Shown in pieces: positions 9,614 through 43,005 of a stretch of DNA of 48,148 nucleotides. Position 1 is the stretch's first letter, and every line of letters starts with the position of its first letter. The notes under the pieces are model-generated. The model saw nothing but the letters and a program-made list of their open reading frames with translations. It was not told the DNA's origin and did no database searches. The stretch spans positions 1 to 48,148 of the forward strand of contig JAOAEQ010000025.1 in assembly GCA_026416715.1 (NCBI GenBank), read 5' to 3'. The DNA is from a bacterium. Lineage in GTDB: Bacteria; UBP4; UBA4092; JAOAEQ01. The translations under genes were made by a program, and so were the position numbers.

Positions 9614-10534
9614 TTAAATCCCAGCTATTCTTAATACTTCTATACTATCTCGAAGCTCTGTTGCAGGAGCCGGTGGATGGACTTCGAGAACCCGAACGGT
9701 ATCCGGTTTAAGATATTTTGCGACCATCGAGAAATCGATGTTCCCTTTCCCAGGCGCTTGATGGTCTTGGTCGTCAACCATATCATGGAGATGGATTCCT
9801 ATCATTTTATCCGCATAAGTATCGAGGAATTCGGTATGCTTATTTATCCCAAGAAACTCGAACATCTGCCCATGGCCAACATCATGCCAATATCCGATAC
9901 TGCCGCCAGCGAATGTGGTAAAAATAACCGCTAATTCCGCAAAATTAGGGATATCATAAAAATGGTATCGGTTCTCAATTCCGAGTTTGATACCATAACG
10001 GAATCCGAATTCGTTCAGTTCATCCAGACTGCGTAATAACTGGTCGAAATGCGGCGCGATATATTTCTGCCGGGTAATTTGCATCTCTCGATATGCTTGG
10101 TCTCGTTCATTGGTTTTATTCTGTTTAATCAATTCAACGAGATGATGGGTTGACCGATGCCGCCCTTGAACCTGAATATATCCGGTATGGAATACTACCG
10201 GAATCCCGCCTAATTCAACTGCTATCTCGATAGTTTTTTTGGAATATTTAACCGCTAGTTTCCGTTCATCTTCATCGAGTGAAGTTAATAATAACGCATC
10301 ACCACTACCCTGTTCACGTTTTAGGATATCCGGTACCGGGCAGAAATTATGGATACTCACGATGTTAATTTCATTCTTTTTATGCAATGAAATTAGGTCG
10401 GTAAGCATCTCCGCTGATAATCGATATTCTGCTTCGATATGGTTAAATCCAGCTTGCTGTATCTCGTGAATTAACGCGATACCATTATCATGCCGATTAG
10501 CATTCCAACTGGTTGAAAGAGCATAGAGAGACAT
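9614..10534 (-). CDS. Xylose-isomerase-like TIM-barrel protein (sugar phosphate isomerase/epimerase family)
   Basis: A 306-residue protein of the AP-endonuclease-2/xylose-isomerase-like TIM-barrel superfamily. Members isomerise or epimerise sugars and polyols using a divalent metal. The likely metal ligands are visible in order: glutamate in LGIENRYH, Asp/His in WHDVGHGQ, histidine in IGIHLHDMVDD, and glutamate in VLEVHPP. The ALSTSWN start of strand 1 and PGKGNIDF near the end fit the family. No signal peptide, so cytoplasmic. The substrate cannot be read from sequence. It is downstream of, and co-directional with, the AAC(3)-like gene, separated by about 90 bases carrying weak A-family repeat sequence. 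Confidence 0.85.
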   Translation of the reverse strand: MSLYALSTSWNANRHDNGIALIHEIQQAGFNHIEAEYRLSAEMLTDLISLHKKNEINIVSIHNFCPVPDILKREQGSGDALLLTSLDEDERKLAVKYSKKTIEIAVELGGIPVVFHTGYIQVQGRHRSTHHLVELIKQNKTNERDQAYREMQITRQKYIAPHFDQLLRSLDELNEFGFRYGIKLGIENRYHFYDIPNFAELAVIFTTFAGGSIGYWHDVGHGQMFEFLGINKHTEFLDTYADKMIGIHLHDMVDDQDHQAPGKGNIDFSMVAKYLKPDTVRVLEVHPPAPATELRDSIEVLRIAGI

Positions 10535-10623: not shown

Positions 10624-11439
10624 TCATGTGGATTTCGATAATGCAATCCATTTCTTTTTCGCTTCTAGCGTTAACAAGTATAGCGGGTCGGATTCAAGCT
10701 CGCGTAGAACCAGTTCGACCATCGGTCTAGCGGCAATTAATCGAACCGTTGATTTCCCGATTTTTCCGATGTGCATAATATTCGCATCTGATAGGAGCGA
10801 ATCGATTTTATTAAAATCGCGTTCCCAACCCCAGCGATGGATCCGACAGCGGATAATTTGCGTGGTTCCATCAGATCGAATGAGTTGCGCATCAACCGGT
10901 TCCGGCAAGAGATGATACGGACTATTCGCTATTTCTTCAACCAGATGTAATAGTGTACTGGAATTATGCATACATCCGATGAGGAGAATATACCCGCCTA
11001 GTTTAACCAGTTTACCGTATGGTGAATCCATAGCGCATGGCGTTTCGCAGGTTTCATGGTTCCGGGTTACATATTCCGCATAGTTGCCGATCGCAGCAAC
11101 TGAATGGGTTGGATGCAGACTTCGAACCGCTTGTTTTCGATGCCGAAATGTTTCCGGAATCATCCCAGTCCAGCAGGGAGTATTTATCGGGTCAAATACC
11201 GGCGGGATTATCGCATTCTGTTGCGCATTACCGGTCAACGTCGGAACTATAATTGTGCCTGTTTCTCCAACTGACTCTAACAATGCATCAATTACCGTTT
11301 CTGCTCCACCGTCAACATATCCGAAACTGCGTAATGAACTATGCACTAACGCAATACTTCCTTGCTGAAGTCCTAAATTCTGTAGTCCGTTGATAATATC
11401 AGATTTTGTAATCACAAAATTCTTGCTCTCCGAAATCAT
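10624..11439 (-). CDS. AAC(3)-family N-acetyltransferase
   Basis: A 271-residue member of the aminoglycoside 3-N-acetyltransferase fold, which moves acetyl from acetyl-CoA to an amine. Visible signatures are ALVHSSLRSFGYVDGG, GTIIVPTLTGN, TGMIPETFRHR, SLHPTHSVAAIG and DSPYGKL, giving a full-length family core. Family membership alone does not show antibiotic resistance. Many such proteins in environmental bacteria have unknown amine substrates, and here the gene stands next to a sugar isomerase and GHL10 glycosidases rather than resistance or mobile genes. An amino-sugar substrate is a reasonable guess. Start at the ATG complementary to 11437-11439. Confidence 0.85.
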   Translation of the reverse strand: MISESKNFVITKSDIINGLQNLGLQQGSIALVHSSLRSFGYVDGGAETVIDALLESVGETGTIIVPTLTGNAQQNAIIPPVFDPINTPCWTGMIPETFRHRKQAVRSLHPTHSVAAIGNYAEYVTRNHETCETPCAMDSPYGKLVKLGGYILLIGCMHNSSTLLHLVEEIANSPYHLLPEPVDAQLIRSDGTTQIIRCRIHRWGWERDFNKIDSLLSDANIMHIGKIGKSTVRLIAARPMVELVLRELESDPLYLLTLEAKKKWIALSKST

Positions 11440-11515: not shown

Positions 11516-13411
11516 TTATTTCAATTCATTCCACTCTTCAACTTTAGTGGTAGATAATAAATTGAAATTCAGCGTAGTAACATTTCCAGCAGAAACACTT
11601 AAACTAGGACTTGTTTTCATATAACTCGATTTCGCTGCGGTAACTGTATAATTACTACCTGGAGTGATATCGAAAAATGCATAGAATCCGGTTCCATCAG
11701 TTGATGTCACCGCAACGGTAGTTAACCCTTGTTTCAAGGATACCGTCGCTCGGTCAACCGTGCTGATTCCAAGCGTAACCGTTCCTATAACATATCCTTT
11801 CGTCGGAGCAGTTTTCCATGCCATTATCGGAGTCGAGACTGCGGAGTAAAACAAATGCGATTTCACCGCAGATTGAAATTCGCTTGCGGATTTCCCTTCG
11901 TTATTTGTTTCAGCATACGAATAAAAACTTACACCAAGCGGTAATCCGCGTGCGGTTTGATATACCCGTAACGATGACGCTTGCGCGAGCGTACTATCAA
12001 TCGCATTCATATACGCACCAAGAATTTTATATACATGCCGACCGTATGCCGAATCGAGTGCAAATACGCATTTACTCGACCAAACACTGAATGTATCGTC
12101 ATACGCCATATTTCCATTAAAATCGAGATAATGGTTTTTCATCCATTCACACCATTCCTGAAATTCATTATTATACGCATCAAGATATCCACTGGTTCCG
12201 GTGTTCCCCCAAGAGATAGTTGCTGCGGAAACTTTCACCCACGGTTTAACCGCAATAATACTCGCATAAATCTTTTTTACTAGCTGGGTCACCTGCCGAC
12301 GTCGCCATGCCCGCCAGGTATTATCCGTAGCGGATGGCTGACCGGTTCGACCATATTCTTCATTAAACCGGGCGACCGCAACGGTGTTATATCCCCATTC
12401 TACTCCGGGGTAGCGAACTAAATCTAACTGGATGCCATCAACATTATATGCCGTTGCAACGTGATATACTACGTTGAACGTATGCTGTTGTACTTCGGGT
12501 ACTCCGGGATCGAACCAAACGTTACTACCTGAAAAGATATTTCCAGCGGTATCGCGACTTGCCCATTCCGGATGCGCTAGATACGGATGTTTCGGAGTTC
12601 CAGTCGTAGCAATACTGGACGCCCAAATCGGATAGGTAGCAAACGCGGCATGGACTTCAAGATACCGTTTCCCGCCGGAAGTATCATGCGCTTTTGCAAT
12701 CAAATCCGCTAAACCGTCATATCCAGCGGTTAAATCTGTTGCTGGCGGTTCATACGGTGAATTCCGATAATATGCATTTCCACGTAACCGAACTTGAACG
12801 ATTACCGCATTATAATGATTCGACCGTAACGTGTTAATTAACGCATCGGTTTGCGCTGGCGTTTTAATCCCATCATGCCATGCATCTACCCATAATGCCC
12901 GGAATTCGTTCGGTTGCGTTGGCATCGGCGGCTGGTATGCGAATTTCGCAGCATCCGCGATAACTAACCCGGTAGTCGGATTGGAATAATTAGTTAGCAT
13001 TAAATATCCTGTTGTTCCTGAAGTAAACGGATATGTCCCGAGACTATACCATTGACTACCGTTCTCTCGCTGACTTATCGTAACAATATTGGTTCCACCA
13101 GCGTAACCAATAATATATTGCGCTGTACTCGACCGATTCGATCCAGCAACATACCAGGTGAATACTTCATAATTCCCAGCGGTATCAATCGTTGGTCGCC
13201 ACGTTGCACTACGGGTAGTATTGGTTGCATTCTGACTTCCGTAACGATATGTCGTCCCGTAATATCCGGGGTATGCACTGGTAACCGTCCAAGTCCCGAC
13301 TTCGGTATATCCTAGGTCACCGTCATCAATAATAAAATCTGTTCCGAACGAAATGGTATACCAACCCAGGATGATTATTACTGTTGCTATAACATCTTGC
13401 TTGAATTTCAT
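11516..13411 (-). CDS. Secreted GHL10 glycosidase-like protein with golvesin-type domain (first of three)
   Basis: 631 residues. A signal peptide (IIILGWYTISFG) is followed by a beta-rich domain at about 25-158 resembling the golvesin/xanthan-lyase C-terminal-like domain (ATWRPTIDTAGNYEVFTWY, GLVIADAAKF). A GHL10 (PF02638-type) TIM barrel spans about 168-490 and a carboxypeptidase-regulatory-like beta domain is at the C-terminus (GTGFYAFFDITPGSNYTV). Conserved acids in the barrel are E252 (YLEVHA), D301 (FDPGVPEV), D325 and D330 with R333 (VDGIQLDLVRYPG). Characterised GHL10 proteins such as E. coli DigH cleave denuded peptidoglycan, while others may attack exopolysaccharide. It is exported, but I see no C-terminal anchor. 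It belongs to a run of three related genes. Confidence 0.88.
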   Translation of the reverse strand: MKFKQDVIATVIIILGWYTISFGTDFIIDDGDLGYTEVGTWTVTSAYPGYYGTTYRYGSQNATNTTRSATWRPTIDTAGNYEVFTWYVAGSNRSSTAQYIIGYAGGTNIVTISQRENGSQWYSLGTYPFTSGTTGYLMLTNYSNPTTGLVIADAAKFAYQPPMPTQPNEFRALWVDAWHDGIKTPAQTDALINTLRSNHYNAVIVQVRLRGNAYYRNSPYEPPATDLTAGYDGLADLIAKAHDTSGGKRYLEVHAAFATYPIWASSIATTGTPKHPYLAHPEWASRDTAGNIFSGSNVWFDPGVPEVQQHTFNVVYHVATAYNVDGIQLDLVRYPGVEWGYNTVAVARFNEEYGRTGQPSATDNTWRAWRRRQVTQLVKKIYASIIAVKPWVKVSAATISWGNTGTSGYLDAYNNEFQEWCEWMKNHYLDFNGNMAYDDTFSVWSSKCVFALDSAYGRHVYKILGAYMNAIDSTLAQASSLRVYQTARGLPLGVSFYSYAETNNEGKSASEFQSAVKSHLFYSAVSTPIMAWKTAPTKGYVIGTVTLGISTVDRATVSLKQGLTTVAVTSTDGTGFYAFFDITPGSNYTVTAAKSSYMKTSPSLSVSAGNVTTLNFNLLSTTKVEEWNELK

Positions 13412-13498
13412 AGTGCAGTTTTCGACCTAGCTTCAGCTGAAGAAGGTTTATCAAGCTCTAGCCTAAAAAGTTTTTAACCGTCAGTTAAATTGATTAAA

Positions 13499-15505
13499 TT
13501 AGTAGTTATTATCCCGAGGAACGGCTATATTTTCATTATCGAAAACTTCAGACAACTCAAACCGGGATAATTCTACGGGAACCGTAACAAAATCTAAATC
13601 TACCGTGGTAACTAAACCAGCAAAAACTGGTTTACCAGACTGCAGGATACTATGTCCATAACCTGGAGGAGTATATGCGGTAATAGTATAGTTTCCTGGC
13701 GGTAAATCGATAAACGCATAAAATCCGGTTCCATCCGTGGTTGTTGTCCAAGCAGATAACGTTGATTCGTTCCGTGCAACCACTCGCGATTTATACACTA
13801 CTCGACCATTATAATATGGAACAGGACTGGTTGCACTACCATAAACATGACCTTTCAGAATCCCAGTTGTCGGTTGCGATTTCCATGACATTGATGGAGT
13901 ATGCGTGGCAGTCGAATAAAATTGGGTTGACATCATCTGATAAAATGCGGTGTTTGAAACGCCACCATCGTTAGTTGCACGATATGAATAGTTCACTATT
14001 CCATGCGCTTTAGCGGTTTCACGACAATAATATATCTGGCGGACGGTTTGTGTCGTAGTGTTGAGATACACCCCAGGACCGATATACGCATGTCTGCCGT
14101 AGGTGCTGTTTACCGCAAACGAAGCCCAGTTCCGAAATGTTGTCGGATAACTATCATCGTCAAAATACGCCATCGGAATACTAGCATCTAAAATATGCTG
14201 GTTCATCCAATATTGCCAATCTTGAAACACATCGGAATACGGCGCGGTACTAGAATATCCGGAACCATTCGGGTTTGGTGCCGGACTCCATGTAATCAAC
14301 GCGCCGGTAACTTTAACATTCGGATTGATTTCCATCGCATGTGCGTATACTTTTTTAACTAATGCCATGACCGCATCGCGCCGATACTGGCACCAAGTTG
14401 ACCAACCAGCTTGACTACTCGTAGTTGGCGGGGCATAGCCGTATTCTTGATGGAATCGGGTGCTAACAATCGAATTATATCCCCATTCAGCACCGTCGTA
14501 CCGAACATAATCATAATGAATTCCATCAACCTCATAATGTTTCACGACATCGAGATATACATCAGTTAAATAGTTAATGACATCCGGAACCCCTGGGTCA
14601 AGAAACATTGAAGTTCCAGAAGCGGTCGCTCCGGTATAACTTCTCGTAAACCATTCCGGATGGGTATAATATACATGGCGAGTCGTATCTGTTGTCGCCT
14701 GTCGAACCGTCGCACAAAGATAGGTTACCATCCACGCATGAACTTCAATATATGGTTTCCCACCGGAAGTATCGTGTGCATACTGAATCAATGTGGATAA
14801 CGCATCAAAATTTGATGGACTCAACCCACCAAAATAATTTTCAAATGTCGATTGATAAGCGACATCACCACGACGACGAACCTGCGGCAGAACTGCATTG
14901 AAATTATATCGCCGGGCAGTGTCAATCATGGCTGAACATTGTGTTGCGGTAAGTAGTCCTGCACCCCAAGCGTCTGCCCAGTATGCACGAAATTCGCCAC
15001 CAGAACGCATCGGCGGTAATTGAAACGAACTGAATTTAACCCCATCCGCCATAACCGCTTTGCCATTCTGTTTCGAATAGTTGGTAAGTTTAACGTATCC
15101 TGAAGTCCCTGCTGAAAATCTGAAGGTACCAAGTAAATTCCACTGCCCGCCATGAATCGTCTGGTTCGTATAAAAGCAGCTAACCCCAGCATCGTGGTAT
15201 ATATAATACTGCGCGTCAATCGGACGATTTCCTCCTTGTGGATACCATATCCAAACCTGATAGGTAGTTGTCGTTGGAATCGTCGGTCGCCAGATAGCAT
15301 ACGCGGTCGCATTTGCTAAACTTGACGTTGAAATTGCATACCGGTAATCTGCACCATATTTATCGCCGGAAACTGTAGCAACCGTCCAGTCACCGATGTA
15401 ACTGAATCCGGTGCTAGTGTTATCAACCACTATTTCTACTGAATAGCTGAAACTAATCTGACTAAAACTCAAAACAATAATCGTTAAAAAATGTTTCAGA
15501 TGCAT
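13499..15505 (-). CDS. Secreted GHL10 glycosidase-like protein with golvesin-type domain (second of three)
   Basis: 668 residues with the same order of parts as the downstream neighbour: signal peptide (HFLTIIVLSFSQISFSYS), golvesin-like beta domain at about 24-160 (IWRPTIPTTTTYQVWIWYP, KAVMADGVKF), GHL10 barrel from about 170 (EFRAYWADAWGAG), and a C-terminal carboxypeptidase-regulatory-like domain (GTGFYAFIDLPPGNYTI). Barrel motifs shared with the other two are HDTSGGKPYIEVHAW, FLDPGVPDV and VDGIHYDYVRYDG. A strong ribosome-binding site GAGGAGGG lies six bases before the ATG. The protein ends about 40 residues after the last domain with no visible anchor. It is separated from its neighbours by 87 and 117 bases. 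Likely an extracellular or cell-wall glycan hydrolase; substrate unknown. Confidence 0.88.
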   Translation of the reverse strand: MHLKHFLTIIVLSFSQISFSYSVEIVVDNTSTGFSYIGDWTVATVSGDKYGADYRYAISTSSLANATAYAIWRPTIPTTTTYQVWIWYPQGGNRPIDAQYYIYHDAGVSCFYTNQTIHGGQWNLLGTFRFSAGTSGYVKLTNYSKQNGKAVMADGVKFSSFQLPPMRSGGEFRAYWADAWGAGLLTATQCSAMIDTARRYNFNAVLPQVRRRGDVAYQSTFENYFGGLSPSNFDALSTLIQYAHDTSGGKPYIEVHAWMVTYLCATVRQATTDTTRHVYYTHPEWFTRSYTGATASGTSMFLDPGVPDVINYLTDVYLDVVKHYEVDGIHYDYVRYDGAEWGYNSIVSTRFHQEYGYAPPTTSSQAGWSTWCQYRRDAVMALVKKVYAHAMEINPNVKVTGALITWSPAPNPNGSGYSSTAPYSDVFQDWQYWMNQHILDASIPMAYFDDDSYPTTFRNWASFAVNSTYGRHAYIGPGVYLNTTTQTVRQIYYCRETAKAHGIVNYSYRATNDGGVSNTAFYQMMSTQFYSTATHTPSMSWKSQPTTGILKGHVYGSATSPVPYYNGRVVYKSRVVARNESTLSAWTTTTDGTGFYAFIDLPPGNYTITAYTPPGYGHSILQSGKPVFAGLVTTVDLDFVTVPVELSRFELSEVFDNENIAVPRDNNY

Positions 15506-15544
15506 GGAACCCTCCTCTAGAAATTTTTAATGTCAAATCATATT

Positions 15545-15591
15545 TCTCAATAACTAAACTATTACTTTAGTATGAGTGTTGAGTATTGAGA
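15545..15591. repeat. Double-stem hairpin between GHL10 genes
   Basis: TCTCAATA (15545-15552) pairs with TATTGAGA (15584-15591), and immediately inside ACTAAA pairs with TTTAGT. No U-tract on either side. It may act in mRNA stability or partial termination between the two genes, or be another dispersed repeat. Confidence 0.55.
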
Positions 15592-15622
15592 TTTGCTATG
15601 TGCTATTTCATTCATGGAACAA

Positions 15623-18103
15623 CTAGTTTTGATTCAGTTCGACTGTATCGAAATACATAGTCTGGGTTGGATTACCACTCGGATTAATCCCAACCACCTG
15701 CACCGCATTATATCTGGTTAATGGCGGATAAACGAACTGTAATTGTCGCCATTGATTCGGCGCCCATTTCCCCGGTTGCAGTACCGCATTTCCACTTTCA
15801 ATAATTTTTTTATACCCGCTATCGTAACTATAGAGATATAAATAAACTTTCTGACTATCATTGATGTTCCCCGCTCCACTATAGAGCCAAACCGAACCGG
15901 AAGCTAGATATCCAGCATTTGCGAATGCAAATAACTGACTCAATTTCGCCTTTTCACCACCAGATTGTGTTCCTTTCAACACGCCAGTACGCCCGAACCA
16001 TGAACTGACTTGACTCCAACTCCCAAGCCCGGTTCCATCACCGTAGATATCCACCATCCAGCCGGTTGTACCTGCATCGAAACTACTATTATTAATAACT
16101 ACCGGGGTTGAAGGAAGTATTGTTCCATCTAGAACCCAGATATAATCGAGATACAATCTACTGGTAATACCACTATTTGCCGGATTTATTCCAACAAATT
16201 GCACCGCTAATAACGTATTCTGTGCATAAAAAGATATCGCTAATTCTCGCCATGAACTCGCTATACTAAACCCACCGTTCCCTGGTTGAACTACAACATT
16301 TCCAGTCGCAACGATTGTCGATGAATTATCTAACTCCTGTAGATAGAGATATACTTTCTGTCGTTTATTTGCATCCGTAACATCTGTAGCTACTCGAGCG
16401 ATTGCAGTATACCATCCTGAACTTGGTACAGAAAAAATTTGGGTTAGTTTCCCTTTTTGCCCTCCGGTTTGCGTAAGGATCACGATGCCAGATTGACCGC
16501 TAAACGTATTGCCCCAAGAAAGGATGCCGGGAGAAATCGCATCCCCATACGTCGCGAAATACCATCTGCTGGTATCACTACTAACCGTAAACGCACCGTA
16601 ACTGTTCATATACGCGAGATTAAAATTGATATTCCGAATCTGACCAGCCATAATCGATTCGTTCATTGTACTCCGTTTTGCATAGGCATATCCCCAGTGG
16701 GTACCGTCAGCGAGAATGGTATATTTCCGGGAAGTAGCTACATTGAAAAAGGCGTAGAACCCGGTCGCATCCGTCGTGGTTATCTCATATACTGTCGTTC
16801 CGGAAGATAACATTACGAGCGCTCCATCAACCCCAACATTACCATAGGTTACCGTCCCTTTAATAATCCCAGTTGTCGGCGATGTTTTCCACGGCATATC
16901 TGGTGGGATAACATAATCTGGGAATAACGTTGTGGTTAAATAGGCATATAACTGATAATCTTCACTACCGCCAGCTTTTGTTGCATAACCGTATCGGTAT
17001 ATCTGCAGTCCTTGCGTATGTGCAGTATATCGCGAATAATAAAGTTGGTTATAAGTTTCGGTAATTGAATTGAGATAACTCCCCTGTAGAACATATACAT
17101 GCCGGCCACCACTCCAATTCATACACGCTAAATTCCAGTTTCGATATCGCGCTGCTCGTGTCGGGTTAGAATCTGGGTCGTATATCATCGGGGATAAATA
17201 ATCGAGAAAATGCCCTTCCATAAACAATTTCCAGTCTTGGAATACATCGAGATACGCGGATGAACTATAGAAATCCGTAGTCGTATATCCCCAAGGAATG
17301 GCACAGATAGATATTTTAATTTTCGGTTTTATTTCGAGTGCATTGGCGTAAAGTTTTTTTACTAGCGCAGTAATATTATCGCGACGGAATTGGTCGAATT
17401 GGTCATCCGTTGTTGTCGGAGTACCGGTTCGATTATAGAGTTTATTAAACCGCGCGATACTAATCGTATTATAGCTCCAGGTATTCCCAGGATAACGGAT
17501 ATAATCGAGTACTACCCCATCGACATCATAGCGTTTAACGACATCCATAAAAACGTTATGCTGATGTTCCTGAACTGCAGGAATCCCTGGGTCAAGATAA
17601 AACCCTTCAGAATTAGATGTTGCTCCGCTACTATCATACATCATATATTCCGGATGTGTTAAGAGAATATGGCCAGCAGGTGCGCCGGATAACGACCCTT
17701 TCCAGATACGGTTCGCAACCAGCCACGCATGCACTTCGATATACTTCTTCCCGCCGGAAGTATCGTGGGCAAGTTTAATCATTGCCGATAATGCATCGAA
17801 CGTCGGGTCAGGATCGTTCACCGCCGGATTATTCGCTCTTGGTTCGTATAATGACGTATAGTATGCATCACCTACTTTCCGCACTTCGGGAACAATAGCA
17901 TTAAAATGATAGGTTCGAGCGGTATTAACCAGAGTCGAAACTTCTGTCCAGTTTAAGAATGTTCCGTCACCCCAACTATAAATATATAACGACCGCAGTT
18001 CCGGTGTTCCACTGTAAGTAAGGCTTATGAATGTAGTTAGAATGATGATTATGATCGCGAGATACAAGGGAGGAATTTTACTAACTATTTCCCGTGTTTG
18101 CAT
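15623..18103 (-). CDS. Secreted GHL10 glycosidase-like protein with tandem C-terminal beta-sandwich modules (third of three)
   Basis: 826 residues from the ATG at 18103. A longer frame begins at 18205, but a good promoter at 18156-18184 lies inside that extension, and a signal peptide (PPLYLAIIIIILTTFIS) follows the shorter start. This copy lacks the golvesin-like domain; the GHL10 barrel follows the signal directly (ELRSLYIYSWGDG, GKKYIEVHAW, YLDPGIPAV, DVDGVVLDYIRYPG). Then come a carboxypeptidase-regulatory-like domain (GFYAFFNVATSRKYTI) and two related ~160-residue modules. The modules share TQTGGQKGKLTQIF/TQSGGEKAKLSQLF, QKVYLYL and VQFVGINP/VQVVGINP and resemble carbohydrate-binding beta-sandwiches. 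As the gene furthest upstream, it is likely transcribed first. Likely role: extracellular glycan hydrolysis with substrate anchoring. Confidence 0.87.
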   Translation of the reverse strand: MQTREIVSKIPPLYLAIIIIILTTFISLTYSGTPELRSLYIYSWGDGTFLNWTEVSTLVNTARTYHFNAIVPEVRKVGDAYYTSLYEPRANNPAVNDPDPTFDALSAMIKLAHDTSGGKKYIEVHAWLVANRIWKGSLSGAPAGHILLTHPEYMMYDSSGATSNSEGFYLDPGIPAVQEHQHNVFMDVVKRYDVDGVVLDYIRYPGNTWSYNTISIARFNKLYNRTGTPTTTDDQFDQFRRDNITALVKKLYANALEIKPKIKISICAIPWGYTTTDFYSSSAYLDVFQDWKLFMEGHFLDYLSPMIYDPDSNPTRAARYRNWNLACMNWSGGRHVYVLQGSYLNSITETYNQLYYSRYTAHTQGLQIYRYGYATKAGGSEDYQLYAYLTTTLFPDYVIPPDMPWKTSPTTGIIKGTVTYGNVGVDGALVMLSSGTTVYEITTTDATGFYAFFNVATSRKYTILADGTHWGYAYAKRSTMNESIMAGQIRNINFNLAYMNSYGAFTVSSDTSRWYFATYGDAISPGILSWGNTFSGQSGIVILTQTGGQKGKLTQIFSVPSSGWYTAIARVATDVTDANKRQKVYLYLQELDNSSTIVATGNVVVQPGNGGFSIASSWRELAISFYAQNTLLAVQFVGINPANSGITSRLYLDYIWVLDGTILPSTPVVINNSSFDAGTTGWMVDIYGDGTGLGSWSQVSSWFGRTGVLKGTQSGGEKAKLSQLFAFANAGYLASGSVWLYSGAGNINDSQKVYLYLYSYDSGYKKIIESGNAVLQPGKWAPNQWRQLQFVYPPLTRYNAVQVVGINPSGNPTQTMYFDTVELNQN

Positions 18104-18155: not shown

Positions 18156-18184
18156 AGTCTATCGCAGAACGCCATCGTTGTCAA
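18156..18184 (-). promoter_or_regulatory. Sigma-70-type promoter for the GHL10 cluster
   Basis: Read on the minus strand: TTGACA (complement of 18179-18184), a 17-base spacer, then TAGACT (18156-18161). The -35 is perfect and the -10 matches four of six. It lies about 50 bases before the preferred ATG at 18103 and points into the GHL10 run. Confidence 0.6.
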
Positions 18185-18342: not shown

Positions 18343-18375
18343 AAATAAAAAAGCGTGAAATCCTAGTTTCACGCC
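18343..18375 (-). terminator. Rho-independent terminator of hisD
   Basis: On the minus strand the perfect 8-bp stem GCGTGAAA-CTAGGA-TTTCACGC is followed by TTTTTTATTTT. It lies about 30 bases after the hisD stop, separating hisD from the GHL10 genes. Confidence 0.88.
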
Positions 18376-18406
18376 TTTAATCCAACAATCTTTTTATTAC
18401 CTAACG

Positions 18407-28434: not shown

Positions 28435-29421
28435 CTAACAACAGATGTTTTTCGCAGTTTTATAGGCCTTTTCGATAACTTCCAGCGCGCGCAGTCCATC
28501 AATGCCATCTACCCGAAGTTTTGAACCAGTAGCAACTGCTTTCAGGAAATCTTCGATTTCGAGTGTAAATCGGCTGGGAACCTCTAGTTTCGGTCTCTGC
28601 CATTCTTTATCTTTCGCCAGCCAATACCGTAATTCGTTTTTGTTATAACTATAAATTGCGGTTCCTTCGGAACCATAAACTTCAACAATCGCTTCACTAA
28701 TCGGAGTCGCCCAACTCGCTTCCACTGTTCCAATGACATTTGATTTCGATTTCAGGAGCATTATTCCAACATCTTCGACCTTAATTTTCTTATTGAACGT
28801 ATGGATTTTCCCGCTGACGGAAGCAACTTCGCCGAAGAAATACCGAAATATATCTACCGAATGAACAAGCGTATCCATAAACACTCCACCGCCGGCTAGT
28901 TTCGGATTTGAGAACCAAACTTGGTCAACGTTATGGAATTTTCCCGCAAACCGATTCCGAAACATCAGCACTGTTCCCAGTTTCCCGGAATCAATCAGTT
29001 TCTTCATCGCAACAATTGGCGTTTGGAACCGATGGCAAAATGCGGTCATTAATAATACTTGATACTTTTTCGCAGCGACTACCATAGCTTTCGCTTCCGC
29101 AACATTCATCGCTAACGGTTTCTCACAAAGTACATGGATCTTCTTCTTCAATGCATGTATTGCGATCTCTTTATGAAATGCCGGAGGAGTACAAATACTA
29201 ATCACATCTAATTGTTCTTTTGCTAACATTTCTTGATAATCAGTATACGGCACGCAATCATATTGATTCGCTCTTGTTCGCGCTGCCGCTTCGTTCACAT
29301 CCGCACAGGCGATAATCCGTGCACCATTCTGTTTATATCCCTCAAAATGTAATCCTGATATACCACCGCACCCGACGATACCGACCCGTATTTTCGAAAA
29401 CTTCGTTGATAATGATGCCAT
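28435..29421 (-). CDS. Gfo/Idh/MocA-family oxidoreductase (first of three)
   Basis: 328 residues, cytoplasmic. The N-terminal Rossmann fold binds NAD(P) (RVGIVGCGGISGLHFEGYK), and VLCEKPLAMN carries the conserved lysine of the EKP motif. The C-terminal alpha/beta domain has GGGVFMDTLVHSVDIFRYFF with the catalytic-type Asp/His. Members oxidise or epimerise sugars, inositols and their derivatives; the exact substrate cannot be inferred. It is last in a minus-strand run with two paralogues, a symporter and an isomerase, which suggests a sugar or polyol catabolic pathway. A spacer of about 130 bases upstream holds a D-family inverted repeat. Confidence 0.9.
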   Translation of the reverse strand: MASLSTKFSKIRVGIVGCGGISGLHFEGYKQNGARIIACADVNEAAARTRANQYDCVPYTDYQEMLAKEQLDVISICTPPAFHKEIAIHALKKKIHVLCEKPLAMNVAEAKAMVVAAKKYQVLLMTAFCHRFQTPIVAMKKLIDSGKLGTVLMFRNRFAGKFHNVDQVWFSNPKLAGGGVFMDTLVHSVDIFRYFFGEVASVSGKIHTFNKKIKVEDVGIMLLKSKSNVIGTVEASWATPISEAIVEVYGSEGTAIYSYNKNELRYWLAKDKEWQRPKLEVPSRFTLEIEDFLKAVATGSKLRVDGIDGLRALEVIEKAYKTAKNICC

Positions 29422-29444
29422 ACCAGTATCGACTCCTTATAATA

Positions 29445-29550
29445 AAAATTTAACCGCAAAGAGCGCTAAGCAAGACCAACTCCGCTAAGAAAAACATATA
29501 TTTTAGTCTTCTTAATGAAGTTAACTTAACGTCTTAGCGGTTAAAAATTA
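29445..29550. repeat. D-family inverted repeat (TTTAACCGC arms)
   Basis: TTTAACCGC (about 29450-29458) pairs with GCGGTTAAA (about 29537-29545), and the adjacent AAAGAGCGCTAAG and CTTAACGTCTTAG are similar inverse sequence. It resembles the AACCGCAAAGAGCGC-type dispersed repeats seen in many bacterial genomes. It lies between two oxidoreductase genes. Confidence 0.65.
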
Positions 29551-29555
29551 TATTA

Positions 29556-30545
29556 TTACTTTTCCAACGGTAGTTTAACCGGTGCTTTTTTCTTCGCTGC
29601 AGCATAAGCACCAAGCGCTACTTCCATTGCTTTCAATCCATCGTATCCGGTTACCGGAACTGGTTTATTTTGTTCAATGGCGGCAATAAACGATTTTATC
29701 ATTTCCAAATCCATATTCGAACCCCAATATACCCAATTCGGGCGAACATCATCGTTATTGTATAACGCCATTTTCTGGTTGAACGTATCCAACCAGATAA
29801 CCCCGTCAGTCCCAATAATATGCATGGTTACATCACCCCATGTCGGATACACGCTTGGTCGTGACCAACTCGGGTCGAGCGTCGCAAATATGCCATTATC
29901 CATTTTCAAACTCAGTATACCACAATCATCGATGGTAAAATTGTAAAATCGGGTATCTATTTCTGCATAAACTTCAATAAACTCAGATTTGGTAAACCAG
30001 CGCATTAAATCCGCTACGTGAACCGTATGGTCCATCACCGCACCGCCTCCACTTAATTTCTTGTCAATGAACCAACCGCCTGGCATCCGCCCGTGATTCG
30101 TCCCATTGATTGCAAGAATTCTACCGATTCGTCCTTCGTCAATCATTTGTTTAACCCGAACCACTGCCGGAGCGAATCGACAGGGAAATGCTGTCATCAA
30201 TTGCACTCCTTGCTTTTCACAGGTATCAATCATCGTTTGTGCATCTTTTACCGAAACGGATATTGGTTTCTCACAGAGAACATGTTTACCTGATTTCGCT
30301 GCCATAACGGTAAGTTTTTTATGGTTCACATTTTCACTGCATATGACTACCGCATGAATGTCAGTGTCTAGTAATTTCTCATAGCTCGAAAAAAACTTGG
30401 TCTGATGTAATTTAGCGATCTTTTTCCCGCGAGCTGAATTATCATCCGCAATGCCTACCACTTCAACATTCGGTAGCGATTTTAAACAAGTAATATAACT
30501 ATTCGCATGCATATGTGCAAAACTGAGCATCCCTACTTTAACCAT
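29556..30545 (-). CDS. Gfo/Idh/MocA-family oxidoreductase (second of three)
   Basis: 329 residues with a Rossmann domain (KVGMLSFAHMHANSYITCLK; the glycine-rich loop is less canonical than in its neighbours, with FAHMHA replacing the usual GxGxxG-like loop), HVLCEKPISVSV with the EKP lysine, and GGAVMDHTVHVADLMRWF in the second domain. A GGAGGA ribosome-binding site lies eight bases before the ATG. Only part of the sequence is conserved with the flanking paralogues, so these are old duplicates with probably different substrates. Middle member of the dehydrogenase run. Confidence 0.9.
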   Translation of the reverse strand: MVKVGMLSFAHMHANSYITCLKSLPNVEVVGIADDNSARGKKIAKLHQTKFFSSYEKLLDTDIHAVVICSENVNHKKLTVMAAKSGKHVLCEKPISVSVKDAQTMIDTCEKQGVQLMTAFPCRFAPAVVRVKQMIDEGRIGRILAINGTNHGRMPGGWFIDKKLSGGGAVMDHTVHVADLMRWFTKSEFIEVYAEIDTRFYNFTIDDCGILSLKMDNGIFATLDPSWSRPSVYPTWGDVTMHIIGTDGVIWLDTFNQKMALYNNDDVRPNWVYWGSNMDLEMIKSFIAAIEQNKPVPVTGYDGLKAMEVALGAYAAAKKKAPVKLPLEK

Positions 30546-30656
30546 ACTATTTGTCCTCCATAAAAAATAGATTACTTTGATTCAACTATTTATTCATCTG
30601 GGTAACCAAAAGTGTTTGCCCCTGGGTACTTACTCTATCGAAATCGGGGGAACCAT

Positions 30657-31646
30657 CTATGACAAATCTATCGGTTTCCCGGTTTTAATTGATTCTAATG
30701 CCGCTAGACTCACTCGCAATGCGCCGATCGCGTCTTTTGTGGTTATCGCCGGTTCCTTATCATTGACAACACAATCGATAAAATGTCGGATTTCCGCAGT
30801 ATAGGGGTCATCGGTTAACGGACTCTCCGGAACCGCTACGCCAACCGTTCCTTTATCCGATTTCCGTACCATAATATTCACAGGCATCGAATCGGACATC
30901 ACAAAATCAATCTGCCCTTTCGACCCGGTAATTTCAACTTTTACATTGAACGTATCCGGTTGCGCCCAGCTCCCTTCAACATGAGCAATAACCCCATTTT
31001 TATACCGAATAACTACCAGCGCATAATCGAGATGGTCTAATCCATCATAAACCAATCCGCGTGCAAAAACTCGTTTCGGTTCTCCGAAACACCAGTTTAA
31101 CCAGTCGAAATCGTGGATAATCATATCGAGAACGACTCCGCCACTCATCGGAATATTCGCATACCAATCATTCGATGCTCGCGGGAATCTTCCGGTTCGA
31201 CTCGTGCGCACTACCCCAGGCTTCCCGATTTTTCCGTGGTCTATCAACTGTTTCATCGTAACAAATTCCGGAAAGAAATGGAGAACATGACCGACCATAA
31301 ACTTAACTCCGGCAGATTTAACTGCTTTAACCATTTCCATTGCATCAGGTAGATTGCGCGCTATCGGCTTTTCACAGAAAATATGTTTTTTGGCTTTTGC
31401 AGCTTTCAAAACATATTCTTTGTGAAATGGTGTCGGTGTACAAATATCAATAACATCTAGCTCCGGATTATTAATCAGTTCATCCGGATTGGATGTTGCT
31501 TTTGCATCATACTGTTCCGCTAATCGAATGCACGACTCTAATATAGGGTCAGCGAATCCGATGAGTTTCGTTCCTGGAATTCGAGAATATGACTGCGCAT
31601 GCAATCGACCCATAGTGCCAGTACCGATGATACCGATTTTTAACAT
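30657..31646 (-). CDS. Gfo/Idh/MocA-family oxidoreductase (third of three)
   Basis: 329 residues. KIGIIGTGTMGRLHAQSY is a canonical NAD(P)-binding loop, IFCEKPIARNL holds the catalytic-type lysine, and MSGGVVLDMIIHDFDWLNW holds the conserved Asp/His of the substrate domain. This copy has the closest look to myo-inositol 2-dehydrogenase and scyllo-inositol dehydrogenase relatives, but that is a family resemblance, not a substrate call. GGGAGG lies 11 bases before the ATG. It directly follows the symporter gene (100 bases), which supports a shared role in using an imported sugar or polyol. Confidence 0.9.
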   Translation of the reverse strand: MLKIGIIGTGTMGRLHAQSYSRIPGTKLIGFADPILESCIRLAEQYDAKATSNPDELINNPELDVIDICTPTPFHKEYVLKAAKAKKHIFCEKPIARNLPDAMEMVKAVKSAGVKFMVGHVLHFFPEFVTMKQLIDHGKIGKPGVVRTSRTGRFPRASNDWYANIPMSGGVVLDMIIHDFDWLNWCFGEPKRVFARGLVYDGLDHLDYALVVIRYKNGVIAHVEGSWAQPDTFNVKVEITGSKGQIDFVMSDSMPVNIMVRKSDKGTVGVAVPESPLTDDPYTAEIRHFIDCVVNDKEPAITTKDAIGALRVSLAALESIKTGKPIDLS

Positions 31647-31746
31647 AGATTTATATCCTCCCGGTTATATTATGAGTTTTTATAATCGATAGTTTATTAT
31701 ACCATTTAATTACCATTGAATGTTCGGTATACAAACATGTTGTACC

Positions 31747-33228
31747 CTAATTTGCTTTCTGCTTATCCATAATAGGTCCAAGGAGATACGATAGTATAAA
31801 AGTTAACACGGTTCCAATAACGATTAACCAGCTCCATCCAATGGGAATTATTTTTTTCTCGGATAACACCAAGAGTATTGTCATACAGGCAGCATTAACA
31901 ACCATAGCGACAATATTCGCCTTATTCGCTACCCGTTTCGTTAGAATTCCTAATAAAAATACGCCTAGTAAACTTCCGTAGGTTACCGAAGTAATTTTAA
32001 ATGCTAGCCATAGAATCCCTTCCGAGAATTTACAGAGGAACGCGATTCCCATCAGAATCAATCCGAAAACAATGATCATGATTCGTGACATCCAGAGATA
32101 ATGTTTTTCGGAAGCATGTCTTACCATTAGCGGACGATATATATCGGTTACAAACGAGGAGGTTAACGAACTCAACGGCGAATCTATACTAGCTAAAATA
32201 ATCGTTGCTAATATCAATCCTTTTAATCCCACTGGAAGCGAATAGAGGACAAAATGAGAGAGAATTTTATCAGAATTATCCGGTAATGGCAGTTCCGGCC
32301 GCTGTTGATAAAAAACATATAATAAGGTTCCGACCGCTAAATAAATACATACTAACGGAAAAACTCCTGCTATCGTTGAAATAATCGCGCGCTGGCTATG
32401 TTGTCTGGTTTTAACAGTAAGTAACCGTTGAACCATTTCCTGGTCGGTACCGAACGCAGCTAAACTACCGAAAAACCCGTTTAGCACGGCAATTAATAAA
32501 GTAGTTGGATCGTTGATATCTAATTTTAAATTAAATAAACTGGTGCGACCTCCTTCACCAGCAATCCGCCATATTTCAGCTAGTCCGCCTTGAATCTGCG
32601 AATAGATATACCCAATTAAAACTATCCCGCCAATGAAAAACATTGTCGCTTCAAACGCACCAGTCCAAACTACCGCTTTAATTCCACCGAACGCAATAAA
32701 AATAATACTTACCGCAGTAAATAGTAGCAACGATTGACCTAACGTCCAGTCCATGATAACTGATACCGCTAAACAAGTAGCATATAACCGTACGCCGGAA
32801 GCCATTAACCGAGTAACGAAGAAGAATATTGAACCTGAATATTGTGATTGGATACCGAACCGATGCTGCAGAAATTCATAAATAGTAGTGCAATTATATT
32901 TAAAGAACACGGGGATAAATAAAAAAGCGACCGTGATTCGAGATAATGCCGAGCCGATAAAAAACTGGAGATAGTGCCAGTTTTCGCGATAACCCGTTGC
33001 GGGAACCCCGATAATCGTTAATGCACTGATTTCCGTTGCGACAAAGGATAAGGTCGCAACAATCATCGGAACCCTACGTTTTCCGAGAAAGAAATCTTCA
33101 GTATCTTCCTCTTTTTTCCCACTGAAATAGGCTATGATGAATAAGAGCGCAATCGCTCCACCGACAAACCAGAAATCAAGCGCACTTAATCCGCTCGTTA
33201 AATTCTGTACCCCTTGAACTGTATCCAA
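31747..33228 (-). CDS. Sodium/solute symporter (SSS family)
   Basis: 493 residues with about 13 hydrophobic segments, matching the SSS (SLC5-like) family that drives uptake of sugars, polyols, carboxylates or amino acids with sodium. Typical pieces are FFLGKRRVPMIVATLSFVATEISALT near the start of the core, VGLKGLILATIILASIDSPLSSLTS, and FGGIKAVVWTGAFEATMFF. The best start is a TTG (complement of 33226-33228) with GAGGT at good spacing; the first in-frame ATG comes only after the first membrane segment. Located between an isomerase and three dehydrogenases, it is the likely importer for their substrate. Confidence 0.9.
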   Translation of the reverse strand: MDTVQGVQNLTSGLSALDFWFVGGAIALLFIIAYFSGKKEEDTEDFFLGKRRVPMIVATLSFVATEISALTIIGVPATGYRENWHYLQFFIGSALSRITVAFLFIPVFFKYNCTTIYEFLQHRFGIQSQYSGSIFFFVTRLMASGVRLYATCLAVSVIMDWTLGQSLLLFTAVSIIFIAFGGIKAVVWTGAFEATMFFIGGIVLIGYIYSQIQGGLAEIWRIAGEGGRTSLFNLKLDINDPTTLLIAVLNGFFGSLAAFGTDQEMVQRLLTVKTRQHSQRAIISTIAGVFPLVCIYLAVGTLLYVFYQQRPELPLPDNSDKILSHFVLYSLPVGLKGLILATIILASIDSPLSSLTSSFVTDIYRPLMVRHASEKHYLWMSRIMIIVFGLILMGIAFLCKFSEGILWLAFKITSVTYGSLLGVFLLGILTKRVANKANIVAMVVNAACMTILLVLSEKKIIPIGWSWLIVIGTVLTFILSYLLGPIMDKQKAN

Positions 33229-33268
33229 ACAATTAACCTCAAAAAATCAATTCCAAATTCGAAACACT

Positions 33269-33296
33269 TTCCCAGCAAGCGTTCACCGCCTGGGAA
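33269..33296. other. Hairpin between isomerase and symporter genes
   Basis: TTCCCAG (33269-33275) pairs with CTGGGAA (33290-33296) around a 14-base loop. No T-tract follows on either strand. It could attenuate or process the message between the two minus-strand genes. Confidence 0.45.
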
Positions 33297-33413
33297 TCAT
33301 CTTGAGTCGTTTCTATTCTATTTAAAATTTCATGACCTAACGGGCGATTTACCGTAAGCTAAAGCCCCGAAAAACAAACGATTTGTTCTTGAAATGTTCC
33401 AAGTATATTAATA

Positions 33414-34247
33414 TTATTTTCTACCAATGATTCTTCGCATAGCCGCTGCCGTATCGAAAATCATCTGCTCCGCATGATGTTTCGGAGGGAAAATTTCTGC
33501 GGTTACATACCCATTATAACCTACTTCACCGAACGCTTGCATCACTTCCGGCCAATTGACATCACCATATAACAACGGAACGAAACCATGAATGGTTCCG
33601 ACATCAATTTTAAAATCTTTGAAATGCACCGCTTTAATTCGTTTCCCAAGAATACGGATCCATTGTTCCGGGAATCCATATAAGAGAACATTGCCAACAT
33701 CAAAATATGCACCAACATAGTTGCTTCCGACTTTATCAATAAAATCCCGGAATTCTAACGGAGATAAAAGAAACTTACTCCAAACATGTTCAAGCCCGAT
33801 ATTAACCTGATATTGTTCAGCGATCGGTGCAAGTTCAGATATCGCTTTCAATGAACGGTCATAGGCGATATCGTAAGGTATAATCCCGGCTTCCGGGGCA
33901 AATGACCAGACATGACCGGGAACAATCAGAACAGTGCTCACTTCCATATACGAAGCTAATTCGAGTAATTTCATTGCATTCTTTTTCGCCTGCTCCCGTT
34001 CTTCCTTTTTATCACTGGTAAAGGAATATCGCCAGAATAAGCCGGTAGACATACTGCTGATTTCGATACCAGTTCGAGCCGCTAACCGTTTAATTTTCTG
34101 CATATCCGCTTTTGTAGATTTTGCGGTTATCTCTCCGGTATCAGTAAAATTCACTTCGATCGCTTCGAATCCGGCTTGTTTTGCGAGTTTAAAACTCTCA
34201 GCTAAATTTCTAGTTCCAAACGCCCATTGGTTTATCCCAATTTTCAT
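33414..34247 (-). CDS. Xylose-isomerase-like TIM-barrel isomerase/epimerase
   Basis: 277 residues of the AP-endonuclease-2 superfamily, probable metal-dependent sugar isomerase or epimerase. Ligand positions in order are NIGLEHVW (Glu), VGAYFDVGNVLLYG (Asp), IKAVHFKDF (His) and YVTAEIFPP (Glu), a full set. The start KIGINQWAFG and FEAIEVNF are typical of the first strands. Closest by eye to hydroxypyruvate isomerase/tagatose-epimerase-like proteins. First gene of the probable operon with the SSS symporter and the three Gfo/Idh/MocA dehydrogenases, all on the minus strand. Confidence 0.88.
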   Translation of the reverse strand: MKIGINQWAFGTRNLAESFKLAKQAGFEAIEVNFTDTGEITAKSTKADMQKIKRLAARTGIEISSMSTGLFWRYSFTSDKKEEREQAKKNAMKLLELASYMEVSTVLIVPGHVWSFAPEAGIIPYDIAYDRSLKAISELAPIAEQYQVNIGLEHVWSKFLLSPLEFRDFIDKVGSNYVGAYFDVGNVLLYGFPEQWIRILGKRIKAVHFKDFKIDVGTIHGFVPLLYGDVNWPEVMQAFGEVGYNGYVTAEIFPPKHHAEQMIFDTAAAMRRIIGRK

Positions 34248-38956: not shown

Positions 38957-39634
38957 TTAAGCTGGTGGGTACTCGGAGCAAAGCAGGAATTGTTTCGGTT
39001 CGTCTTCGATAATCTCCGGAAAGCGGGGCAACGCATCGAGGAAACGGTTATCTTTAACATCATCATTCACGAGCGATACTTCGCCAACGAGGACGTTCCC
39101 TTTCCCGATTTCCGCCCAGAAATTATGATAGAGTTTCGGGGGGAAAGTGATACTTTCTCCCGGACGAAGGGTTATGGTTGTTCCTGCAGGGAAAGTTTTT
39201 TGCATCCCGTCAATCGAAACGATAACATCTGAATCTGCAAGCTTCTCATGTTCATCCGAATTATAGAGTGTCATCTGGAGATTTCCACCCATCCGATTGA
39301 TGATATCTTCCATTTTCGTCCAATGGAAATGGAACGGGGTAACCTGATGTTCACGAACCAGCATAATCTTTTCGCAATATTTCTTCAGGCAATTCGGATC
39401 GTTCAGATTCCCGTTCCGTAAGGTGAATAAGATTAATCCGAACCGTTCGAAATTTCCGAGTCCGAAATCGGTTATATCCCAACCGAGCGCATGGTTCCGA
39501 ATCTCATCTACTTCGTGTCCTTTCGATTTCCATTCTTCCGGTGACCAATACGCAAACGGCGGTAACTGAAACTGGAATCGCTCGAAGGTTTTAATTGCTT
39601 CTCGAATATATTTATTGATTTCACTACGTCTCAT
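38957..39634 (-). CDS. D-lyxose ketol-isomerase
   Basis: 225 residues of the D-lyxose isomerase (cupin) family, which interconverts D-lyxose/D-xylulose and, more importantly, D-mannose/D-fructose. The match runs the full length: MRRSEINKYIREAIKTFERF, LPPFAYWSPEEW, GWDITDFGLGNFERFGL, LFTLRNGN, VTPFHFHWTKMEDIINRMGG, PGESITFPPKLYHNFWAE, GEVSLVNDD and DNRFL. The metal ligands H-x-H, Glu (HFHWTKMED) and the later His (LYHNFW) are all present. Cytoplasmic. It lies directly downstream of the GH38 gene on the same strand (71 bases), so the two may use a mannose-containing substrate in sequence. Confidence 0.92.
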   Translation of the reverse strand: MRRSEINKYIREAIKTFERFQFQLPPFAYWSPEEWKSKGHEVDEIRNHALGWDITDFGLGNFERFGLILFTLRNGNLNDPNCLKKYCEKIMLVREHQVTPFHFHWTKMEDIINRMGGNLQMTLYNSDEHEKLADSDVIVSIDGMQKTFPAGTTITLRPGESITFPPKLYHNFWAEIGKGNVLVGEVSLVNDDVKDNRFLDALPRFPEIIEDEPKQFLLCSEYPPA

Positions 39635-39705
39635 AGCAACATAGGGGATTGAGTATCGTTTTACACAAAGAATTAATGTTAATCACTGCAAATAGCTATT
39701 CTATT

Positions 39706-42570: not shown

Positions 42571-42691
42571 AACCCTTATTATACTCCTTAACTAAAACTA
42601 GAAATGACAATTTGCGGATTCATCTTCTGCTAGTAGAGATAGAGTTCTATGACTGAACTATTATTCCCTTGTGCACAAGCGAGTTTCCCTG

Positions 42692-42712
42692 CCTATAAAG
42701 GTTGTTTATAGG
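42692..42712 (-). promoter_or_regulatory. Hairpin in the GH38 leader
   Basis: CCTATAAA (42692-42699) pairs perfectly with TTTATAGG (42705-42712); flanking CCTG and CAGG can extend the stem past a one-sided bulge. It lies about 50 bases inside the predicted transcript and 120 bases before the gene. It could be an operator or an RNA switch; no known class matches. Confidence 0.5.
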
Positions 42713-42758
42713 TTAATGAACAGGCTAGCTCTGCATGTCCATCTATGTTTTATCTTGT

Positions 42759-42786
42759 ATTATACTCCACAATAAGCAGTTGTCAA
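42759..42786 (-). promoter_or_regulatory. Perfect-consensus sigma-70 promoter for the GH38 gene
   Basis: On the minus strand TTGACA (42781-42786 complement), a 16-base spacer, then TATAAT (42759-42764 complement). Both boxes match consensus exactly. It reads toward the GH38 gene, giving a predicted leader of roughly 180 bases. Confidence 0.75.
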
Positions 42787-42855
42787 TAGCAATAATTCAA
42801 GAAATTGTAATATCCTGATTCTACTAGAGTTATAGAAAAAATAGAATGATAAAAC

Positions 42856-42878
42856 CAAACTCACCATTGGTAAGTTTG
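42856..42878 (-). terminator. Terminator downstream of the radical SAM gene
   Basis: CAAACTCACCA-T-TGGTAAGTTTG forms an 11-bp stem with one mismatch. T-runs follow on both strands (GTTTTATC on minus, TTTTTT on plus), so it may work in either direction. It lies about 130 bases after the stop of the minus-strand radical SAM gene. Confidence 0.7.
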
Positions 42879-43005
42879 TTTTTTCTAGTCTTAAATTAAA
42901 TCAAGAAATGTATCTCTTAAACTAATTCTTGGGATTATGCGCAACGGATAATCAATTTTTATTACGATCCGGTATTCTACCCTGTCAGACGATACGAAAT
43001 ACCGG

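Follow-up and report, generated by a model that had tools for sequence, protein, structure and literature searches.

The adjacent genes g1, g2 and g3 probably encode secreted, glycan-active proteins of the GHL10 fold, in the DYIRY branch of that family, with the C-terminal modules of g1 serving as a lineage-specific surface tag used across the genome and the PVELSxF tail of g2 as a second label. We infer the surface location, the common partner of the tagged proteins and the cleavage of glycans by the barrels. Both tags are best read as new, that is, as putative C-terminal sorting or anchoring labels without an earlier description. A preliminary description of this DNA had reported the tandem modules of g1 as accessory domains, and overlooked that they and the g2 tail occur genome-wide at C-termini.

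The window, meaning the whole stretch of 48,148 nucleotides that was analysed, is contig 25 of the 2.96 Mb genome of an uncultured bacterium of the candidate phylum UBP4. All three genes lie on the minus strand and are transcribed in the order g1 (15623..18103), g2 (13499..15505), g3 (11516..13411). The Pfam matches and the orthologue in the related genome UBA6127 showed g1 to consist of a signal/TM segment, a GHL10 barrel (17054-17998), a carboxypeptidase-regulatory-like domain (16616-16864) and a C-terminal double module A+B of about 320 aa (15626..16588), a putative sorting or anchoring tag according to its recurrence, AlphaFold and Foldseek. In g2, a signal peptide is followed by a golvesin domain (15029-15433; Pfam Golvesin_C), the barrel (14156-14956; Pfam), a regulatory-like domain (13655-13810; Pfam CarboxypepD_reg) and a C-terminal tail with PVELSRFE (13499..13579), a putative short tag by recurrence of the motif in two genomes. 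The third gene has a signal peptide, a golvesin domain (12938-13333; Golvesin_C), the barrel (12119-12904; Pfam) and a regulatory-like domain (11558-11761; CarboxypepD_reg). Not all secreted proteins are tagged: g3 carries neither the long tag nor PVELSxF, both of which were looked for in this genome.

Most of the domain content given in the preliminary description was confirmed. The three GHL10 genes in a row scored 130, 119 and 124 bits with Pfam PF02638 (cut-off 27.9), the motifs HDTSGGKxY(I/L)EVHA, DPG(V/I)P and VDGxxxDx(I/V)RYxG were found in each of them, and N-terminal golvesin domains (PF25275) were present in g2 and g3 (110 and 112 bits; cut-off 31.6) and absent from g1. Tandem C-terminal beta-sandwiches do occur in one gene only, which is however not the third, since their carrier g1 is transcribed first. 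The carboxypeptidase-regulatory-like domain assigned to all three had a match in each, but only that of g2 reached the cut-off (32.3, with 31.3 for g3 and 26.0 for g1). The general view, that these are secreted, modular proteins in which a GHL10 fold is combined with a shuffled set of accessory domains, is supported by Pfam and by the structural model of g2 (pLDDT 85), in which both Cwp19 and golvesin are recognisable. This model came closest to the crystal structure of Clostridioides difficile Cwp19 (TM 0.79 over the target), ahead of the golvesin domain in a xanthan lyase from Paenibacillus (6f2p; for the golvesin domain of g2, E 2.4e-18 with rmsd 2.2 A) and, after that, of PgaB. In 6f2p the golvesin domain is C-terminal and attached to a lyase, whereas in g2 and g3 it is N-terminal and attached to a GHL10 barrel. 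Golvesin_C is a much-repeated module in this genome, with 15 matches (on C9, C14, C15, C21, C23, C25, C37 and C43), and it matched in 1 of 14 control genomes.

Transcription of g1, g2 and g3 together from one promoter is plausible. The genes are separated by 117 bp (g1-g2) and 87 bp (g2-g3), and an intergenic scan found no terminator-like site between them. A terminator-like hairpin with a 12-pair stem and a T-run (18349..18378, minus strand), 3' of hisD and upstream of g1, parts the set from hisD, and a promoter-like TTGACA-17-TAGACT lies upstream of g1 (18156..18184, minus strand), though not above chance for the region; shuffled sequence yielded at least as many hits to promoters and terminators as the region did. 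The transcript may extend past g3, since the next two genes have its orientation, with spacers of 76 and 89 bp: an AAC(3)-like acetyltransferase-family gene (10624..11439; Pfam Antibiotic_NAT, 209 bits), which scores under the NCBIfam resistance cut-offs, and a gene for a sugar isomerase/epimerase-like TIM barrel (9614..10534; AP_endonuc_2, 75.7 bits). Elsewhere in the window, segments 28435-34247 and 38957-44352 contain three Gfo/Idh-type dehydrogenases, a sodium/sugar-type symporter, isomerases and an alpha-mannosidase-like gene, all named by reading the sequence, as well as a radical-SAM/SPASM protein resembling sulfatase-maturing enzymes, for which SPASM is the actual match. Taken together, the genes of these segments would fit a polysaccharide-degrading lifestyle.

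The GHL10 family is expanded in this genome (19 matches, 16 of them over the cut-off) and has 16 matches each in UBA6127 (G001) and G013; 38 of the 60 comparison genomes have none. A tree of barrels aligned with E. coli DigH and Cwp19 split into two clades (100/100). The DDYFY clade holds DigH, Cwp19 and one copy from this genome (G000:C17:24122), and the trio falls in the other, large clade. Local tandem duplication of the trio was rejected by the test of a clade of the three alone (p 6e-50), and the genes are ancient paralogues. The barrel of g3 is the most diverged. That of g1 is 75% identical to its orthologue in UBA6127 and that of g2 59% (55% overall for the orthologue, L054). The cluster, for which a check in relatives had been proposed, is not conserved: UBA6127, the sole relative from the class that was compared, has a pair of a g1-type and a golvesin-GHL10 gene and a lone g2 orthologue. 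The proposed active site of Cwp19 consists of Asp196, Ser250 and Gln295, with Arg132 as a possible partner (PMC5765458). Both E. coli DigH and Cwp19 carry DDYFY, Ser250, Gln295 and Arg132. Aligned to them, the trio has D-(Y/L)-(V/I)-R-Y, Ala or Cys at 250 and Met at 295, and Arg132 is kept in g1 only. Pocket type and clade are imperfectly linked, since the 1106-aa product of L044:210-3530 (G000:C14), which combines three golvesin domains, a PKD domain, a GHL10 barrel and a PVELSAF tail, belongs to the trio's subclade and yet has DDYFY, NPYR and Ser250; moving it to the DigH clade was rejected weakly (p 0.02). Two very divergent GHL10 genes (L049:1-3850, G000:C3) adjoin a GH20 beta-N-acetylhexosaminidase-like gene.

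The last module of g1, used as a query, was found at 27 places in its genome, which correspond to 14 loci that contain the A+B pair whole or in part, namely g1 and 13 further places. The long tag was always terminal, with 0-17 residues between the module and the stop codon in every intact copy. Its carriers are 466 to 2020 residues long and begin with hydrophobic signal sequences, as judged by eye (one starts at a contig edge). The cargo is varied and includes the GHL10 barrel, choice-of-anchor V, an SBBP propeller, a beta-helix, a papain protease with a lectin-like domain and others, with related cargo detectable in one group of three segments only. As with C-terminal tags in general, the double module is thus fixed at the C-terminus of many unrelated proteins of one genome that have signal peptides by eye. 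One locus (C10) is interrupted by an in-frame TAA and another (C17) is cut by the contig end; the former encodes a small secreted tag-bearing protein (L105:1681-3366) whose homologues in UBA6127 are intact. An extra segment of about 200 aa precedes the long tag in three proteins of this genome (L094, L095 and L101), which keep the terminal YWDH(S/T/R)L(F/Y), and in many carriers of UBA6127; the segment plus the long tag may be the long form from which the tag descends. Within the genome the tails are 46-67% identical to each other, with a median dN of 0.41 and a dS of about 2.4 (18 of 66 pairs saturated). The copies are old and under purifying selection. Because identity is kept at this level with synonymous sites near saturation, the tails must have been maintained under selection for long, and the same near-saturation gives no support to the idea that the tail spread recently or is still undergoing gene conversion.

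The comparison with UBA6127, which limits the cross-genome analysis of tails to two genomes of the class, was informative on how the tag evolves. The g1 orthologue has a cargo part 63% identical over 514 aa but a C-terminal tail only 15% identical. From the idea of a lineage-specific tag, it was predicted that this other tail would recur in UBA6127, and it did: 18 matches were found, and in 16 of the 17 readable carriers the protein ends 0-20 residues after the tail. By hhalign (99.2%, E 2.7e-19), homology between the two tail families extends along their entire length and includes a shared terminal D.D...YWD..LF. In a tree of 24 tails, each genome formed one clade (100/100), and pairing of the tails by cargo was rejected in AU tests for g1 (p 9e-4), choice-of-anchor V (3e-6) and the papain protease (4e-7). 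Across the genomes, these three cargo pairs are 40-63% identical in the cargo and 15-18% in the tail; within this genome, the same three tails are 47-62% identical. The choice-of-anchor V protein (NF041895) carries the long tag in both genomes. Choice-of-anchor V domains are named for the different anchors that they have in different lineages, and one related NCBIfam model bears the name MXYO-CTERM-anchored. When 290 relatives were searched with a profile (E 1e-3), the long tag was matched in this genome and UBA6127 only. Grouping of the tails by genome fits co-evolution with one shared partner; a tail amplified once, early in each lineage, and then kept by purifying selection would look similar with only two genomes.

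The second putative label is a peptide. In g2, PVELSRFE stands 26 residues before the stop codon, and residues 642-668 are disordered in the model (pLDDT <50). A strict DNA pattern for the motif occurred 11 times in this genome and its reversed control not at all, and a looser P-V-E-L-x-x-F pattern occurred 21 times here and 32 times in UBA6127 (reversed controls, 5 and 3). When long open frames were considered, the motif lay 10-34 residues from the stop codon in all 18 cases of this genome (g2 and 17 others) and 10-26 residues from it in all 24 cases of UBA6127, 16 of which end exactly at residue 10; a response-regulator look-alike is among the 24, which leaves about 23. Over both genomes, 41 of the 42 motifs in long frames were thus PVELSxF-type tails near the stop. 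Positions that the pattern leaves free were conserved as well: Ser5 in 37 of 42, Val ahead of the Pro in 36 and Glu10 in 26. No relevant mention of a PVELS motif was found in the literature searched. PVELSSF-like strings begin fibronectin-type domains in bacteria that use type IX secretion (T9SS); in the tails of this genome and of UBA6127 no domain follows PVELSxF. MYXO-CTERM, PEP-CTERM and similar sorting tags are likewise short motifs that dozens of unrelated secreted proteins have close to the stop codon, but after PVELSxFxxE there is no transmembrane helix or basic end, and residue 10 is often the exact end.

Among known systems, T9SS offers a close parallel to the long tag in architecture. 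Its C-terminal domains are a conserved beta-sandwich on unrelated secreted proteins and decide their surface fate, with tails of about 100 aa in type A and 150-235 aa in type B (PMC12618676). An N-terminal signal peptide and a C-terminal beta-sandwich common to unrelated secreted proteins are shared with the long tag, which differs in being a CBM-like double module of about 320 aa instead of a single Ig-like domain of about 100 aa and in giving no sequence match. The type A tail TIGR04183 had no matches in this genome or in UBA6127, and occurred in 21 of the 60 comparison genomes (20 over the cut-off), several of them with at least 64 copies. A role of the tagged proteins as type A cargo was rejected on this absence from both genomes of the class. 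The type B model TIGR04131 was not listed for any of 12 full-length tails in an NCBIfam scan with E up to 10. A marker search for SprA had no match in this genome, and none in the control genomes either. We put forward, as less likely than not, the possibility that the UBP4 class has a new surface-sorting pathway, lacking type A tags, in which a jelly-roll tag co-evolves with its receptor separately in each genome and a second signal of about 10 residues, VPVELSxFxxE-COOH, is used.

The fold of the long tag leaves room for a different interpretation. AlphaFold modelling from 12 copies gave two tandem jelly rolls (pLDDT 93.3, pTM 0.90), for which Foldseek returned carbohydrate-binding proteins of the CBM type: the CBM22 tandem of Paenibacillus Xyn10C, the surface glycan-binding protein SGBP-B, CBM61, CBM16, CBM4 and a porphyran-binding CBM (E 1e-10 for the tandem; TM about 0.7 for single modules). 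Xyn10C, CBM61, CBM16 and SGBP-B share the module fold and the tandem arrangement with the long tag, but only about 10-18% identity, and the long tag differs in being fixed C-terminally on unrelated cargo. No family in Pfam or NCBIfam matched it. Assignment to a named CBM family by sequence was rejected, the only match being that of one copy to CBM_4_9 at E 0.47, and the hits of a PDB profile search were dismissed as nanobody-type chance matches. With this fold, the modules may bind external glycans rather than sort. The tandem could then be an ordinary CBM pair that ties enzymes and adhesins to an external food polysaccharide and stands at the C-terminus by mere habit. Such an explanation has the best structural matches in its favour, but we consider it rather unlikely, since much of the cargo (choice-of-anchor V, papain protease, beta-helix and SBBP proteins) has no obvious glycan role and the long tag is always terminal. 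That tail divergence tracks the genome and not the cargo also speaks against it, although a shared polysaccharide target could give the same pattern. Given that Foldseek finds CBM-like tandems and sequence searches find no family, a glycan-binding anchor fits the data as well as a translocation signal does; either would be an address label.

What the barrels do has to be weighed as well. The preliminary description had pointed to DigH, which cleaves denuded glycans (PMC12288456), and by this reasoning the trio would cut (denuded) peptidoglycan. The trio shares fold and Pfam family with DigH and Cwp19 (sequence match to Cwp19, 8e-21; fold match, TM 0.79), and both of these characterised GHL10 enzymes act on peptidoglycan, Cwp19 being a lytic transglycosylase (PMC6016235). 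Cwp19 also pairs its barrel with a C-terminal surface-anchoring repeat, CWB2, a pairing like that in g1, with an unrelated anchoring part. Because the trio belongs to the opposite clade (100/100) and has Asp196, Ser250 and Gln295 replaced, however, the transfer of DigH or Cwp19 function did not hold up; Arg132 is retained in g1 alone. Moreover, a DDYFY paralogue sits elsewhere in this genome. This gene (G000:C17:24122-25024, L001, 508 aa), its sole member of the DDYFY clade, would by its sequence be a better DigH candidate than the trio and the DigH/Cwp19-like protein here. We therefore regard a peptidoglycan-cutting trio as very improbable. A slightly less improbable alternative is that the barrels are no longer enzymes, and act as lectin-like or structural GHL10 folds at the surface. 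The expansion of the family would agree with this, as would the lack of an invariant classical second catalytic carboxylate across 32 mostly DYIRY-type barrels, in which, of the acids, D332 and D440 (g2 numbering) alone never vary and D327 and D234 are near-invariant. On the other hand, HDTSGGK, EVHA, DPG and D..R are invariant in six aligned UBP4 proteins, which suggests a functional pocket, and Cwp19 is active despite an unusual catalytic pair (PMC5765458, PMC6016235). A Pfam GHL10 match hides two clades with different pockets, and caution is needed in transferring DigH function on the basis of it.

In the reading that we prefer, of glycan-active barrels with C-terminal labels, the tagged proteins would be exported by means of the N-terminal signal peptide, after which the C-terminal tandem jelly rolls would fold. 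The folded C-terminal end could then be recognised by a common partner, either a surface receptor or a surface glycan, and the catalytic part would be displayed at the cell surface; the PVELSxF tail of g2 would act as a second, peptide-type label. Readable from the sequence, present on many proteins and exchanged between lineages as one piece, such a tag would yield a list of the surface proteome of an uncultured phylum and a handle for finding its receptor.
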